Part shown: piece by piece, positions 28,782 through 34,928 of the stretch
Position numbering within the stretch: position 1 is the stretch's first letter
Layout: the number at the start of each line of letters is the position of its first letter
NCBI RefSeq assembly: GCF_002090055.1
Contig: NZ_BBRH01000012.1
Span: 1-64,000 of the forward strand
Origin: Demequina sp. NBRC 110051
Lineage (GTDB): Bacteria > Actinomycetota > Actinomycetes > Actinomycetales > Demequinaceae
DNA length: 64,000 nt
Direction of reading: 5' to 3'
The notes under the pieces: generated by a model
Seen by the model: the letters and a program-made list of their open reading frames with translations, nothing else
The model's database searches: none
What the model was told of the DNA's origin: nothing
Program-made: the position numbers and the translations under genes

Positions 28782-29114
28782 TCAGCTCCCGCGGTAGGTC
28801 GAGTAGGCGAACGGGCTGAGCAACAACGGCACGTGATAGTGATCACCGTCACCCACGGTGAAGGTGATCAACACCTCGGGATAGAACGAGTCGACGTTGA
28901 GGCGCGAGAAGTACATGCCGGTGTCGAACCGCACCTGGTAGTCGCCGGGCGCGAGGCGGTCGGGACCCAACTCGCCGATGCGGCCGTCTGCGTTGGTCAC
29001 GCCCGAGGCGACCGGCTCCCACCCGCCCTCCTCTCGTGCCGAGAGGGTGACGGCGACGCCCGCGGCGGGAGTGCCCGTGACGGCGTCGAGGACGTGCGTG
29101 GTCAGGTGGCTCAT
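28782..29114 (-). CDS. uraH: 5-Hydroxyisourate hydrolase
   Basis: UraH (110 aa) hydrolyses 5-hydroxyisourate, the product of uricase, to OHCU. It is a transthyretin-like protein with the diagnostic C-terminal YRGS, the N-terminal HVLDAVTG (catalytic His) and YHVPLLLSPF near the end (second His). The start overlaps the uraD stop by 4 bases (ATGA), so the two are coupled. Confidence 0.96.
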   Translation of the reverse strand: MSHLTTHVLDAVTGTPAAGVAVTLSAREEGGWEPVASGVTNADGRIGELGPDRLAPGDYQVRFDTGMYFSRLNVDSFYPEVLITFTVGDGDHYHVPLLLSPFAYSTYRGS

Positions 29115-29578
29115 GCATTCTCCCAGGTGGACTTCAGGCGCAGCGCGGCGATCAGCCGCAACTGCTCGGACGTCTCGTTCAGTTCGGTAAGCGGATCGTT
29201 GGCGAGGCGGCGCTCGAGCTCGGCGAGGATCTCCTCGCGCGAGCGCCCGGCGGCGCGGATAAGGAACACCCGCCCAAAGCGCTCCTCGTAGGCGGCGTTG
29301 CCAGCCGCGAGACGTGCGGCGAGGGCCGCATCGGGGTCCTGGCTGGCCGCCTGTTCGGAGGCGGAAAATGCCGCCTCGGCGCCCTCACCCGCATGGCGCT
29401 CGCCGATGCGAGGGTGGGCCGCGAGCGCCTCGTCGACCTCGGCCTCGGTGAGGTGGGCCGCAGACCTCTCGGAGGCCTCGAGCAGTGCTTCGAGGGTGTC
29501 GAACTTCTGTCCGACGATCTCGTCAGCCCACCGGCGAATCCGCAGGCACGACAGCAGTTGGTCACGATTCAAGCTCAT
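29111..29578 (-). CDS. uraD: OHCU decarboxylase
   Basis: UraD (155 aa) decarboxylates 2-oxo-4-hydroxy-4-carboxy-5-ureidoimidazoline to S-allantoin. The catalytic His lies in LAAHPRIGERH, and the substrate-binding Glu region (YEERFGRVFLIRAAGRS) is intact. The ATG is 6 nt downstream of TAGGAT inside a palindrome shared with the divergent nucleotidyltransferase gene, so the mRNA is probably leaderless. Confidence 0.95.
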   Translation of the reverse strand: MSLNRDQLLSCLRIRRWADEIVGQKFDTLEALLEASERSAAHLTEAEVDEALAAHPRIGERHAGEGAEAAFSASEQAASQDPDAALAARLAAGNAAYEERFGRVFLIRAAGRSREEILAELERRLANDPLTELNETSEQLRLIAALRLKSTWENA

Positions 29579-29581
29579 CCC

Positions 29582-29597
29582 GCCATCCTAGGATGGC
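29582..29597. promoter_or_regulatory. Palindromic divergent leaderless promoter
   Basis: GCCATCCTAGGATGGC is a perfect 16-bp palindrome. On both strands it contains TAGGAT, placed 7 nt before the nucleotidyltransferase ATG (plus) and 6 nt before the uraD ATG (minus). The two -10 boxes therefore overlap in the same bases. Confidence 0.7.
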
Positions 29598-29601
29598 AAG
29601 C

Positions 29602-30159
29602 ATGGATGTCACGGGAGTGGTGCTGGCCGCAGGGGCGGGAACACGGGCCGGAGGGCCCAAGGCTTTGCGCACACGCAAGGACGGCAAGCCCTGGATCGCG
29701 ATCGCGGTCGAGGCCCTCCGTAGTGCTGGCTGCCGCGAGGTCATCGTGGTGCTCGGGGCTGAGGCCGATGCGGCGGCTGCGCTGGTACCGCGCGGCGCCC
29801 TCCCGGTGGTGGCGACCGACTGGGCCCAGGGTCAGTCGGCCTCCCTCAAGGTGGGACTCGCCGCGGCGGCGACCTCGAGCTCCGACGGCGTGCTCCTCAC
29901 ACTCGTGGACTTGCCCGGCCAAAGCGCCGCGGCGGCAGCACGGGTGCTCGCGGCCGTCACCGACGACCCCCGCGGCACCCTCGCCCGCGCGCAGTACGAC
30001 AGCGCGCCTGGCCACCCGGTCTACCTGGGACGCGACCACTGGGGCGAGATCGGTGAGGCCGTCAGGGGCGACACCGGCGCTCGCGAGTACCTTGACACGC
30101 ATCTCACGATCGCGGTGGACTGCACCGACGTGGGAGGCGGCGAGGACGTCGACGCTTAG
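29602..30159 (+). CDS. MocA/MobA-like nucleotidyltransferase
   Basis: This 185-aa protein has the NTP-transferase signature VVLAAGAGTRAGGPKAL at its N-terminus and LLTLVDLPG at the metal-binding site. The family includes MocA, which adds CMP to the molybdenum cofactor for xanthine dehydrogenase-type enzymes. Sharing a promoter with uraDH and a genome neighbourhood with an XDH makes MocA the likely role. The ATG at 29602 is preferred to one at 29593 because of the -10 box spacing. Its stop interlocks with that of the next convergent gene (TTAG). Confidence 0.82.
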   Translation: MDVTGVVLAAGAGTRAGGPKALRTRKDGKPWIAIAVEALRSAGCREVIVVLGAEADAAAALVPRGALPVVATDWAQGQSASLKVGLAAAATSSSDGVLLTLVDLPGQSAAAAARVLAAVTDDPRGTLARAQYDSAPGHPVYLGRDHWGEIGEAVRGDTGAREYLDTHLTIAVDCTDVGGGEDVDA

Positions 30160-31577
30160 GGCGTCTCGGAGAAGCCTCGCCTGGTCATGACGCCCCATGA
30201 CGCCTTTTCGCCGCGCAAGGATGCGATGAGGCCGCGCACACGCCACCACAGGTGGAGCGGACGGAACCAGAACGGCTCGAGGACTGCCGCGAGGGCGAGC
30301 CCCGCCATATCGGCCAGGCGCCGGTAGCGTCCGAACGCCACGACCTCCACGAGGAGCGCCGCGAGCGACACCGCGATCGACAACAGGAACGACACCGCGA
30401 CAAACACCACGAAGACCCACGGCGCGATCCATCCGAACGCGATGCCGACGATCGCGGCGGCAAAACCGATCAGTTCGATCACCGGGCCCCACAGCTCGTA
30501 GAGCCAGAAGTACGGCATGGTGAGCACGCCCAGACGCCCGTAGCGGGGTCGCCCGATCATGTCGCGGAACTTGCCGAGCAGTTCACCCAAACCGTGGGAC
30601 CAGCGCCGGCGCTGGCGGGAGATCACTGCGAGGGTAGAGGGGGTTTCTGACCAGCACACGGGCTCGGCGACGAACACCACGCGATAGTCCTGGTGGCGTT
30701 CTTGGAGAAGCCGATGCGTCGCGACCACCAGGTCGGCGTCCTCGGCGAGCGAGGCTTCGTCGAGCCCGCCCACCTCCGCCATGACGTCGCGGCGGAACAC
30801 GCCGAAGGCGCCGGAAATAATCATCAGGCCGTTCGCGGCGGACCATCCAGCGCGCCCCACCAGGAAGGCGCGCATGTATTCGAGCACCTGAGTGCGCTCA
30901 AGCATCGTGGACGGGGCCTTCACGTCGACCACGCGTCCGCGCTCCACCGTCGAGCCGTTCGACGGCAGCACCACTCCCCCGGCGGCGACCACCATCGGGT
31001 CGTCCACGAAGGGTTGCGCGACGCGCAGCAACGCGTCGGGCTCGAGGATCGAGTCGCCATCGATCATGCACACCAGCGGCTTGGAACAGAGCCGGAACGC
31101 GGCGTTGACGGCGTCGGAGCGACGCCCCACCGACTCCTTGCGCAGCAGCACCAGGCCGGGGTGACGACTCGAGCGATAGGTCTCGATGGTGCGACCCACC
31201 TGCTCGACCGACTCCTCGACGGTGGGGACGTAGCGTTCCTCGAGGTCGAAGGCGTCGATGAGACGCTGGGCTGTGTTGTCCGTGGAACCGTCGTCGACGA
31301 CGACGATCTCGAGGCTCGGATACCGCGCCTCGAGAAGCGACTGCACCGACTGAAGAATGCCGGCCTCCTCGTTGTGGGCGGGCACGATGACTGACACCCC
31401 CGGCGCGAGGGGATTAGAAAAGGTCAGCGCCTGCGTGTTCTCGTCCTCCCATCGCTGCTCGCGGGCCACGTGTACGGTCGCACCGATGATCACCGAAGCG
31501 AAGATGACGTGATGTGTCAGGTAATACAGCGTCAACGCGAGGGTGACGGCTGTGAAGATCCATTCGACCGGACTCAT
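30156..31577 (-). CDS. Membrane-bound processive GT2 glycosyltransferase
   Basis: This 473-aa protein has an N-terminal membrane segment, a family 2 glycosyltransferase domain (residues 60-290) and three to four C-terminal membrane segments (about 350-425). The catalytic motifs VVDDGSTDN, MIDGDS, EDAD and QRRRW (a QxxRW motif) are those of processive synthases such as cellulose, chitin or hyaluronan synthase. It probably makes and extrudes a polysaccharide. It overlaps the HEAT-repeat gene by 4 bp and is the last gene of a receiver-HEAT-GT2 operon. The sugar is unknown. Confidence 0.88.
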   Translation of the reverse strand: MSPVEWIFTAVTLALTLYYLTHHVIFASVIIGATVHVAREQRWEDENTQALTFSNPLAPGVSVIVPAHNEEAGILQSVQSLLEARYPSLEIVVVDDGSTDNTAQRLIDAFDLEERYVPTVEESVEQVGRTIETYRSSRHPGLVLLRKESVGRRSDAVNAAFRLCSKPLVCMIDGDSILEPDALLRVAQPFVDDPMVVAAGGVVLPSNGSTVERGRVVDVKAPSTMLERTQVLEYMRAFLVGRAGWSAANGLMIISGAFGVFRRDVMAEVGGLDEASLAEDADLVVATHRLLQERHQDYRVVFVAEPVCWSETPSTLAVISRQRRRWSHGLGELLGKFRDMIGRPRYGRLGVLTMPYFWLYELWGPVIELIGFAAAIVGIAFGWIAPWVFVVFVAVSFLLSIAVSLAALLVEVVAFGRYRRLADMAGLALAAVLEPFWFRPLHLWWRVRGLIASLRGEKASWGVMTRRGFSETP

Positions 31578-32461
31578 GGTTCAAGCCTCACGTGATGGAG
31601 TTCGGCGTAGGCGCCGTGGAGTGACCGTTGGGTCAGCACCGGCAGGTCGTGTTTGCGCAGGCGTTTCTCGATAGGCGTCGCGGAGCGCGGGTCTCCCAGG
31701 CGCGCGAGGGACCAGGCGGCTGCATCGGCCACCGCAGGATCGTCGTGGGCGACCGCGTGCTCGAGCGGCACGCGCGCATCCGTCAGGTGCAGAAAGCCCG
31801 CAACCTCGGCTGCCATCGCCGCAACCTCGGGGCGATCGGACTGCCACGCGAGCCCCAGGGAGCGGGCCGAGCGAGGCGCGGCATGGACGATCGACATCGC
31901 AGCGACTGACACCGGCAGTGGAGCCTCGTCGGACTGCGCGGCGCGCACCAGGAATGGCACGGCGGTGTCAATGCCACACTCGCCGAGGGCACGGGCAGCG
32001 GCGGAGCGGACCCGCACGTCCCGGTCACCCAGCAGGTCCAGCAACGGGCGCGTCTCGCGGTCCGCGAGGCACGCGACGAACATCCGGGCCCCGCGGGCGC
32101 GTGTGAGGGCCACCTGGCTGTGCATCATCTCCACCGCATGCTGGCGAAAGCCCTCCTGGGTGAGCCACGTCGCGAGCGTCGCGCGGTCAGCGCCGCGCAG
32201 CTTTGTCGACAGCCTCGCGGCGGTAGCCGCGAGCGCGTGCCGGCGGGCCCGCCGCCAGGGCGCACGGACGTCGTCCCCCTCCAACACGCGGAAGAGCACC
32301 TCGCGGGCCCATGTCGAGCGGCGCTGGTCAGCGGCATCGGCCACCCATCGCAGCACCCGGATCACGAGCACGGCGACGACGAGCACCACCACGAGCACCG
32401 CAGAGCCGAGCAGGAGCCAGGCCGCGAGAGATTCTGCGCCAGCGGTGGACAGGTCAGGCAT
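31574..32461 (-). CDS. Membrane-anchored HEAT-repeat protein
   Basis: This 295-aa protein has one N-terminal membrane segment (residues about 13-38) followed by a helical domain with HEAT-like repeats, visible as DRDVRVRSAAARALGECG, DRPEVAAMAAEVAGFL and DDPAVADAAAWSLARLGD. HEAT repeats bind proteins, so it may link the receiver protein upstream to the glycosyltransferase downstream. It overlaps both neighbours (8 bp and 4 bp), which indicates tight co-expression. I do not know a characterised homologue. Confidence 0.8.
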   Translation of the reverse strand: MPDLSTAGAESLAAWLLLGSAVLVVVLVVAVLVIRVLRWVADAADQRRSTWAREVLFRVLEGDDVRAPWRRARRHALAATAARLSTKLRGADRATLATWLTQEGFRQHAVEMMHSQVALTRARGARMFVACLADRETRPLLDLLGDRDVRVRSAAARALGECGIDTAVPFLVRAAQSDEAPLPVSVAAMSIVHAAPRSARSLGLAWQSDRPEVAAMAAEVAGFLHLTDARVPLEHAVAHDDPAVADAAAWSLARLGDPRSATPIEKRLRKHDLPVLTQRSLHGAYAELHHVRLEP

Positions 32462-32819
32462 GCAGCAGCCGGGTGACGCGCACCATCAGCTCACGCGTGG
32501 AGAAGGGCTTCTGGATGTATTCGTCGACGCCGACCGCGTAGGCGCGCTCAAGGTCCACCTCGAGCGCCTTGGCCGTGAGCATCAGCACGGGGATCGACGC
32601 GAGCGTGGGGTCGGTACGCATGGCCTCGCACACCTCGATGCCATTCATACGCGGCATCATCCAATCGAGGATGACCAGATCGGGGGTCGAGGCGACCACG
32701 GCGGCAAGTCCCGCCCTGCCATCGGACTCCACCTCGACATCGTGGCCGCCCGCGCGGAGTTTGTGCGCCACCAGCAAGGAGATGTCGGGGTCGTCCTCGA
32801 TCACGACCACTCGTGCCAC
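32454..32819 (-). CDS. Single-domain response regulator
   Basis: This 121-aa protein is a lone receiver domain. The acidic pocket is VVIEDDPD, the phosphoacceptor Asp is in LVILDWMMPRMNG, and the conserved Thr and Lys are in MLTAKA and IQKPFS. There is no DNA-binding output domain, so it should act by protein contact. GTG at 32819 follows AAGGGAG at good spacing; a longer reading is possible from 32891 but lacks support. It heads the operon with the HEAT and GT2 genes and is divergent from a histidine kinase that is its likely partner. Confidence 0.88.
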   Translation of the reverse strand: MARVVVIEDDPDISLLVAHKLRAGGHDVEVESDGRAGLAAVVASTPDLVILDWMMPRMNGIEVCEAMRTDPTLASIPVLMLTAKALEVDLERAYAVGVDEYIQKPFSTRELMVRVTRLLHA

Positions 32820-32912
32820 GCTCACTCCCTTCGTCACGGCGCGCCGGCCTCTCGCAGGGTCGCCTGGGGTCCACCCTAAACTGTCAGGCACGACATGCTC
32901 GGAGGTGAATCG

Positions 32913-34928
32913 GTGCCCGTCGCTTCGCCCCCGCAGTCGTCACGGCTCGTGCTCATGGTGAGCGGCCTCGTGGCGCTGACCCTTGTGTTGGGTATCGCCG
33001 CAGTGGCCCTCGCCACTTACGGAGAATCCACCTCGGCGTGGTGGCCGGCAGCCGGCACCGCCGTGATCGCCGTCCTCCTCGCTCCGCGGCGCACGTGGGC
33101 GTGGGTGATCGCCGCGCTGCTGGTTGCCACTGCGGCCTCCAACCTGGTGGCGGGGCGCGACCTGGGCCTGTCCCTGGCATTCGCCGTGACCAACGCCCTC
33201 GAGGCGTGGGTCGTCGCGTGGTTGCTCACCCGCCGCGGTGCCGCGCCAAGACTCGCCACCGTGCGCGAGGTCACGACGCTCATCGTGGCCGCCATCGCCG
33301 GCGCGGCCGTCGCCGGGGTGGGCGCAGGCAGCGCGGTCGCTCTGATCGAGGGCGAGCCGTGGTGGTCGACGGCGTTCTCCGTGTTTCCGAGCCACCTCTC
33401 CGCGGTGCTCACCGTGGTGCCCATCGCGCTTGCGCGCCGCAGCGAGGCGCGCTCCACGGGCTCGGCGCTGCGTTGGATCCAGCCGTGGGCGCTCGGCATC
33501 GCGGTCGTGCTGGTGTTCGGCACGCCCGCGCAACTGCCCATCACCTTCGTCCTCTTCCCCATGCTCATGTGGGGCGCGTTTGCCCTGTCGATGCGGGCGC
33601 TCGCGATCGAGCTGGTCGTCACCGCCGCTGCGGTCACCACGTTCACGATGCTCGGGACCGGGCCGTTCGCGCTCGAGGACTGGGGCGTCCTTGAGCGCCG
33701 CATCGTGGTCCAGGGCTTTCTGTGGACTTTCGTCGCGTCGACGCTGTATGTCTCCGCCGCACGCATCGAACAGCTCACCGCCGTCACGCGCGTGCGCCGG
33801 CGAGAAGAGTTGCTGCGCTCGGGAATCCTGGGTGCTCCCATCGGCATGCTGCTGTTGCGAGAGGACGACAACGGCCGCCTGTGGATCATCGAGAGCAATG
33901 CGCGAGCCAGGCGGTCGCTGGGCCTCACCGCCGCGACCGGTAGCGGCATGGAGGCCCCGATCGATCTCGCGGCCACCGACGAGGGCACTCAGGCTGTGGT
34001 CGAGGCAGTGCACGCGTCGACGGGCTCCGACGACGCCGACGACGGTGACCGCGCTGCGAGCGTCGACGTCAGCGTCGCGGGCCGCATGCTGGAGCTCACG
34101 GCCACACGCATGGACCCGGAAGACGAGGACACCCTCGTCATCGTCCAGGTCGGCGATGTCACGGAACAGCGCCAGCACCTCCGGGCCGTGCGCCAGGCGC
34201 TGGCTGCAGAAAAGGAGGCCGTGGCGACACTGCGCGCCGCGGACCGCGAGCGCGAGGAGTTCGTCGCGTCGGTCAGCCACGAGCTGCGGACGCCCATCAC
34301 GAGCATCGTCGGCTTCGTCGAGGTCCTGCTCGACGAGGAAGACGTGAACCCGGTGCAGCGCCGTCATCTCGAAATCGTCGAGCGCAACGCGCGGCGACTG
34401 GGCGGGCTCGTGGAAGACATCCTCGCCCTCACGGTTGCTACGACGGCCCGCCGCGCCGCCTGCGACGTGTCACGCCTCGCCGCCGACGCCGTGCAGGACG
34501 TGAGCACCGGCGCCGAGCAGCGCCGCGTGTCGATCGTGATGCGCGACAGCCCCGCCACCTTCGTCGTCGGAGTGCGCGCGGACCTCGAGCGCATCCTCAT
34601 CAACCTCCTCAGCAACGCGGCCAAATTCAGCCCACCCGGCTCGACGGTGCACGTCGCCATCGACCGCCAGGGTGACCCGGTGCGGCTAACGATTACGGAC
34701 GAGGGGCCAGGCATCCCGGCCGACCAACTTGAGCACGTCTTCGGTCGCTTCCAGCGCGGGACGTTCGCCACCGAGAACCAGGTCCCTGGCGTGGGACTAG
34801 GACTCGCCATGGTGCGCGAACTCGCCCACCGCAATGACTTCACCGTCCGGCTCGTCTCCGACGGCGAGCACGGCACCACGGCCGTTGTCGAAATGCCCCG
34901 CTCGCCCTCGCCGGACTTCACGACGTAG
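32913..34928 (+). CDS. MASE1-type membrane sensor histidine kinase
   Basis: This 671-aa kinase has an N-terminal multi-pass region of about eight segments resembling MASE1 (to residue ~290), a PAS-like region, a short coiled coil, then HisKA with SVSHELRTPI (phospho-His) and an HATPase domain with NLLSNAAKFS, DEGPGIP and GVGLGLAM. GTG at 32913 is the likely start, because GGAGGTGA lies at correct spacing; an ATG at 32895 precedes this site. It is divergent from the single-domain receiver gene, 93 bp away. Confidence 0.88.
   Translation: MPVASPPQSSRLVLMVSGLVALTLVLGIAAVALATYGESTSAWWPAAGTAVIAVLLAPRRTWAWVIAALLVATAASNLVAGRDLGLSLAFAVTNALEAWVVAWLLTRRGAAPRLATVREVTTLIVAAIAGAAVAGVGAGSAVALIEGEPWWSTAFSVFPSHLSAVLTVVPIALARRSEARSTGSALRWIQPWALGIAVVLVFGTPAQLPITFVLFPMLMWGAFALSMRALAIELVVTAAAVTTFTMLGTGPFALEDWGVLERRIVVQGFLWTFVASTLYVSAARIEQLTAVTRVRRREELLRSGILGAPIGMLLLREDDNGRLWIIESNARARRSLGLTAATGSGMEAPIDLAATDEGTQAVVEAVHASTGSDDADDGDRAASVDVSVAGRMLELTATRMDPEDEDTLVIVQVGDVTEQRQHLRAVRQALAAEKEAVATLRAADREREEFVASVSHELRTPITSIVGFVEVLLDEEDVNPVQRRHLEIVERNARRLGGLVEDILALTVATTARRAACDVSRLAADAVQDVSTGAEQRRVSIVMRDSPATFVVGVRADLERILINLLSNAAKFSPPGSTVHVAIDRQGDPVRLTITDEGPGIPADQLEHVFGRFQRGTFATENQVPGVGLGLAMVRELAHRNDFTVRLVSDGEHGTTAVVEMPRSPSPDFTT

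Follow-up and report, generated by a model that had tools for sequence, protein, structure and literature searches.

We analyzed a stretch of 64,000 nucleotides from Demequina sp. NBRC 110051 (contig NZ_BBRH01000012.1, positions 1 to 64,000), referred to below as the window. It contains a sensor histidine kinase with a MASE1 domain, a lone receiver (REC), a membrane-anchored HEAT-repeat protein and a predicted polysaccharide synthase of glycosyltransferase family 2 (GT2), encoded side by side. We observed that the HEAT and GT2 genes recur as a pair across bacteria and haloarchaea. The partnership of the two proteins is strongly supported by this gene linkage, and the system appears to be widespread and uncharacterised. 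We lean, with modest confidence, towards the view that it is a polysaccharide secretion machine of the synthase-dependent kind, controlled by the receiver.

Linkage of the HEAT and GT2 genes

Loci were collected by three routes. Scanning contigs with the Cellulomonas soli GT2 yielded 80 of them, whole-genome searches gave more, and 11 came from plasmid records. Selection was by the GT2 alone, except for 20 stretches that were refetched because a receiver was missing from their short flanks (for two or three of these the reason was an odd layout). After removal of exact repeats there were 223 distinct loci, in which close relatives remain, unweighted. The HEAT gene was found directly upstream of the GT2 gene and on the same strand in 213 of the 215 distinct loci with at least 700 bp of upstream sequence. 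The two misses were L084, a GT2 fragment with no HEAT, and L259, in which the HEAT gene is present but convergent. Outside the training set of the HEAT model, the gene stood directly upstream in 92 of 93 loci.

As controls we used 29 other GT2 loci, which a search of Actinomycetes with the PgaC model had returned; none had less than 700 bp of upstream sequence. These gave one weak HEAT match (E = 9e-5), no receiver and no kinase, and chance does not explain the HEAT linkage of the family. A tree obtained with a quick maximum-likelihood method, and containing several long branches, placed 69 family rows on one side of a single branch and the 29 controls on the other (Shimodaira-Hasegawa-like approximate likelihood ratio test, 97). 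The synthase was carried by 23 of 394 Actinomycetes, by 33 of 149 genomes of the acidobacterial phylum and by 88 of 219 genomes of the order of Heyndrickxia, each sample including the genome on which it was centred. Only 4 of 44 Demequina genomes had it (E threshold 1e-60), and this patchy distribution within the genus points to frequent gain or loss.

The original prediction had treated all four genes as one module. REC-HEAT-GT2 does recur far beyond the genus, which answers the main check proposed there, but the set has no constant MASE1 kinase, and the receiver is common without being universal. Haloarchaeal loci retained REC, HEAT and GT2, with no barrel protein annotated. The Haloarcula halophila plasmid carries two near-identical REC-HEAT-GT2 regions (L297 and L298), whose GT2 proteins and following gene are annotated differently. 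No open reading frame (ORF) with HEAT fused to REC or to GT2 was present among loci L001-L105. One protein listed with both Response_reg and HEAT (P0144) is a generic large HEAT protein and was not used as evidence of fusion.

The HEAT protein of the window has a single hydrophobic stretch at about residues 12-34. Since basic residues follow this stretch, the repeats would face the cytoplasm. Its structure model (predicted local distance difference test, pLDDT, 92.3) has a long N-terminal helix (residues 6-60) and then a helical solenoid. HEAT_2 and HEAT_PBS both scored above their cut-offs, and the protein has the tandem helical repeats and right-handed solenoid of HEAT proteins. Foldseek returned designed HEAT-like proteins on top and otherwise generic repeats, which gave no hint of a function. 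In a search of 5.8 billion proteins with one query each, the HEAT protein found 15 relatives and its GT2 partner 3671. The HEAT sequence varies fast, therefore earlier sequence comparison is unlikely to have linked these proteins easily.

The synthase

The GT2 of the window carries D96, DGD at 173-175, E279-D280 and QRRRW at 322-326. D96, D173, D175, E279, D280, Q322, R323 and W326 were invariant among 28 aligned GT2 sequences, and the set of QxxRW and DxD/ED was invariant or nearly so in an alignment of 95. The structure model was of good quality (pLDDT 90.7, predicted template-modelling score 0.90), and hyaluronan, cellulose and chitin synthases matched it across residues 1-473, in agreement with a membrane synthase that has interface and channel helices. 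The chain terminates soon past the final predicted helix, and neither PilZ (at E 0.01) nor another known regulatory domain was found in it with Pfam. Among NCBIfam models the best match was PgaC/IcaA (TIGR03937, 121.3 bits), below the cut-off of 422.3, and the BcsA model (TIGR03030) gave 54.0 bits, below its cut-off of 699.1.

By its catalytic motifs and fold the protein is a membrane synthase, in support of its earlier description as a GT2 synthase, and the neighbour genes of its relatives fit polysaccharide secretion. Judged from sequence, it probably makes and secretes a polymer, presumably in a processive manner. An enzyme that glycosylates a lipid or a surface protein without making a polymer, for example a mannosyl- or GlcNAc-transferase, is a highly improbable alternative in our judgement. 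VIA-align ranked the mannosyltransferase PcManGT on top, above the polysaccharide synthases; the fold is therefore not specific, as GT2 folds are common to polymerising and non-polymerising enzymes. Foldseek, however, placed hyaluronan synthase first, the motif set is that conserved in the 95 sequences, and many Gram-negative operons contain an outer-membrane barrel (see below) that would be superfluous for an enzyme modifying lipids or proteins.

Outer-membrane barrel and sugar-related neighbours

In many Gram-negative loci a tetratricopeptide-repeat (TPR) protein with a YaiO barrel (PF19413) is encoded between receiver and HEAT, as seen with Pfam on examples. The commonest full gene order among 95 loci was REC-YaiO-HEAT-GT2 (33 loci), followed by REC-HEAT-GT2 (32 loci). 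YaiO was upstream in 55 of the 94 family loci with long flanks. In Acidobacteria the barrel, where seen, was often positioned elsewhere. YaiO was absent from the actinobacterial loci (0/20), from the Bacilli loci (0/24 and 0/28) and from the window, where its absence is expected, as Demequina is Gram-positive. A barrel that occurs where there is an outer membrane and is missing where there is none matches what an export machine predicts. One locus with the Gram-negative order REC-YaiO-HEAT-GT2 (L102) comes from a record titled Mycobacterium sp. KBS0706, and this title may be wrong.

The genes around the GT2 of several relatives are related to sugars. In Halosolutus, the genes after it encode GlmS and a hexapeptide sugar nucleotidyltransferase. 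Genes of the UDP-glucose/GDP-mannose dehydrogenase family were found near it in L247, L248, L254 and L255, NAD-epimerase genes in L246-L248, and polysaccharide deacetylase genes in L076, L098 (about 4 kb away) and L258. A neighbour family without Pfam match was present in 14 of 111 long loci (Table 1), and one of its members resembles a solved Cellulomonas fimi protein described by the depositors as 'putative GH97' (E = 5.5e-14). These neighbours suggest that the product is probably a polysaccharide, likely with amino sugars or uronic acids. The window itself contains none of these genes.

A second family of large neighbour proteins (567-1079 aa) was noted in L031, L105, L249, L251-L255, L295 and L296. 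The members scanned had no Pfam match, and one member compared with PDB sequences gave no match.

Receiver, kinase and their role

The receiver of the window has no output domain. Reading by eye, we found D9, D10, D52, T82 and K104 kept, so the acidic pair, the phosphoacceptor Asp, the Thr/Ser and the Lys are present. Across 71 receivers of the collected loci (script numbering) D58 was kept in 68 and K110 in all 71, with the Thr position below 90%. The receiver gene lay immediately upstream in all 18 actinobacterial loci (the Actinomycetes sample minus four loci already in the collection), 26 of 29 of the acidobacterial phylum, 22 of 29 of Bacilli and 26 of 28 of the order of Heyndrickxia. The 94 loci with long flanks, a set enriched for receiver-less cases, had it upstream in 68 and anywhere in 75. 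No receiver was in view in, for example, L245-L253 and the loci of Deinococcus radiophilus and Bacteroides finegoldii.

Of the 94 long-flank loci, 54 had a kinase. Seven kinases near family loci were scanned, and only that of Demequina had MASE1; the others had CHASE3, dCache, GAF/PAS or no recognised sensor. The MASE1 kinase therefore falls out of the conserved set to which the original prediction had assigned it. The sensor input of the kinase is exchanged between loci while REC-HEAT-GT2 stays.

Lone receivers of the Spo0F and CheY kind are known relays. The receiver could likewise be a phosphorelay intermediate or a phosphate sink, with a transcription factor elsewhere as the true output and HEAT-GT2 as neighbour or target genes. 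Some loci do contain hybrid kinases with Hpt, additional receivers or an Hpt gene, as a relay would lead one to expect. Across phyla, however, the receiver stays beside HEAT, whereas kinases are found in different positions, with different sensors or not at all, and the kinase of the window has a plain, non-hybrid HisKA-HATPase architecture. We regard this explanation as improbable. The position of its gene suggests instead that the receiver is the usual input to HEAT-GT2, which it may contact directly. In a mean-field coupling analysis of 163 REC-HEAT pairs (effective number 130), too few for this purpose, the highest scores between the two proteins did not exceed those of shuffles made within clades, and we do not count the result as support.

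Methylobacterium departs from the common arrangement. The upstream receiver was absent in 5 of 5 loci, and in 4 of these (L057, L063, L064 and L075) the GT2 gene is followed, at a distance of no more than about 350 bp, by a gene that Pfam identified as GGDEF-EAL. The GGDEF-EAL gene of L057 is interrupted by the contig end, and L067 had no GGDEF-EAL downstream of the GT2. The arrangement looks as if GGDEF-EAL substituted for the receiver input. The claim that the system is free of cyclic di-GMP (c-di-GMP) consequently fails as a general statement. A motif scan of loci L001-L105 also covered GGDEF, EAL and PilZ, but the PilZ pattern was too loose for use. On one Erythrobacter plasmid, about 5 kb separate the GT2 gene from a PilZ gene.

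These cases bear on a further explanation, according to which HEAT is a structural co-polymerase or scaffold always needed by the GT2, and receiver and kinase have their effect elsewhere or adjust the system in some lineages only. It would account for a near-invariant HEAT-GT2 linkage alongside a receiver that several lineages lack and in whose place Methylobacterium has GGDEF-EAL. Against it, the receiver is encoded directly before HEAT in most loci of Actinobacteria, Acidobacteria and Bacilli, and in the window the two genes overlap, a tighter connection than mere proximity. This explanation shares much with the one we prefer and mainly disputes the role of the receiver; we think it rather unlikely. 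As receiver-less lineages exist, HEAT must have some role that needs no receiver. In a cautious form, HEAT is the constant partner and the receiver the commonest of several inputs.

Proposed mechanism

In the receiver-controlled machine that we favour, the kinase would sense a signal and phosphorylate the adjacent lone receiver. The phosphorylated receiver would then dock on the cytoplasmic HEAT repeats and set the activity of the synthase, in a position analogous to that of the PilZ domain in BcsA. HEAT, anchored beside the synthase as an obligate partner, would alter GT2 activity or the state of its channel. The GT2 would polymerise a sugar, by our best guess an amino sugar or the corresponding uronic acid, and thread the chain through a channel that it forms in the membrane. 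Among Gram-negative relatives the TPR/YaiO barrel would take the chain across the outer membrane.

A broader proposal is that HEAT-GT2 forms a distinct class of synthase-dependent polysaccharide secretion in Bacteria and haloarchaea, with membrane-anchored HEAT as the universal regulatory partner of the synthase, direct input that usually comes from a phosphorylated lone receiver and not from c-di-GMP, and post-translational control by the kinase within seconds. We put this forward tentatively, as a possibility of slightly less than even standing.

Comparison with known systems

HEAT-GT2 is close to the synthase-dependent secretion systems in its parts and its logic. With BcsA/BcsB/BcsC it has in common a membrane GT2 with D, D, D and QxxRW, an inner-membrane partner and, in Gram-negatives, TPR and an outer-membrane barrel, and the proposed post-translational switch of activity is a further likeness to BcsA. 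It differs in that the GT2 has no PilZ, the partner is a cytoplasmic HEAT protein and not the periplasmic BcsB, and the input is usually a receiver.

PgaC systems use a TPR/barrel exporter and a deacetylase. PgaC/IcaA is the nearest NCBIfam model, and some HEAT-GT2 loci include a deacetylase. However, the score is far under the cut-off, no PgaD was seen, HEAT and receiver genes occur instead, and the PgaC-like controls lie on the opposite side of the tree. Hyaluronan synthase shows 17% identity and is not known to have a HEAT or receiver partner. The yaiO-yaiX-yaiP-yaiS genes of E. coli comprise a GT2 and the outer-membrane barrel YaiO, with a deacetylase annotated in the vicinity, but no HEAT or receiver is annotated there. 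YaiP is 27% identical over one part only (231 columns) and in the tree sits on a long branch apart from the family.

On a plasmid of Planococcus maritimus (L295), DUF4956 and CotH genes adjoin HEAT-GT2. Gram-positive Pel clusters carry CotH, a polyphosphate polymerase and DUF4956, and phosphorylation has been suggested as a possible replacement for c-di-GMP where the latter is absent (PMC7112168). DUF4956 and CotH are thus common to L295 and Pel; the Pel synthase is a different one, and the passages of that paper considered here report no HEAT or receiver (PMC7112168).

EmbRS of Rubrivivax was considered as a precedent and rejected, as its regulator has a LuxR-type DNA-binding domain according to the excerpt consulted (PMC3684757). 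Four further papers contain the word HEAT in unrelated uses, as far as the excerpts go (PMC3826837, PMC12419801, PMC3174227, PMC10434189). We found no description of the gene set in full-text searches of an open-licence library, which takes in neither subscription papers nor preprints. This agrees with the original prediction, which knew of no characterised system of such makeup.

Organisation of the locus

The four genes are as first described, with a receiver lacking an output domain, a membrane-anchored HEAT protein and a GT2 with QxxRW, and all ORFs lie at the positions then given (Table 1). Receiver and HEAT genes overlap by 8 bp, HEAT and GT2 genes by 4 bp. The receiver ORF is open from 32891, with GTG at 32819 as its likely start; the kinase ORF is open from ATG 32895, with GTG at 32913 as its likely start. 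By eye, a Shine-Dalgarno-like stretch precedes each GTG. With these starts the earlier distance between the divergent kinase and receiver genes was reproduced.

Table 1. Genes of the Demequina sp. NBRC 110051 locus and a neighbour family of related loci.
Feature	Position	Strand	Length	Details
GT2 membrane polysaccharide synthase (predicted)	30156..31577	-	473 aa	PF13641, E = 1.8e-29
Membrane-anchored HEAT-repeat protein	31574..32461	-	295 aa	HEAT_2 PF13646, E = 4.9e-16
Lone receiver	32454..32819	-	121 aa	Response_reg PF00072, E = 2.5e-25, residues 4-115
Receiver-kinase divergent intergenic region	32820..32912	.	93 bp	starts judged by eye
MASE1 sensor histidine kinase	32913..34928	+	671 aa	MASE1 4.2e-15, HisKA 1.4e-18, HATPase_c 1.6e-23
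Neighbour family without Pfam match			289-637 aa	L057, L063, L064, L067, L081, L098, L102, L243, L245, L251, L252, L254, L255, L258

The flanks of the locus are ordinary and unrelated to it. One side has genes resembling those of the urate pathway, together with one for a MobA-like nucleotidyltransferase, and the other side has a glyoxalase-family gene. The region 28782-30159 looks like a purine-degradation neighbourhood. It contains genes that we take, by eye, to be hydroxyisourate-hydrolase-like and OHCU-decarboxylase-like, beside the MobA-like gene (PF12804, E = 7.1e-29).

Significance

Cellulose, poly-N-acetylglucosamine, alginate and Pel are the textbook synthase-dependent polysaccharides under control of c-di-GMP. 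The operon described here offers an input other than c-di-GMP, which recurs in many phyla. If our proposal is true, it would be among the few cases of a lone receiver acting on an enzyme complex rather than on DNA. It would also provide a matrix system for numerous bacteria of soil and water as well as for some haloarchaea, and a new partner protein of GT2 synthases.

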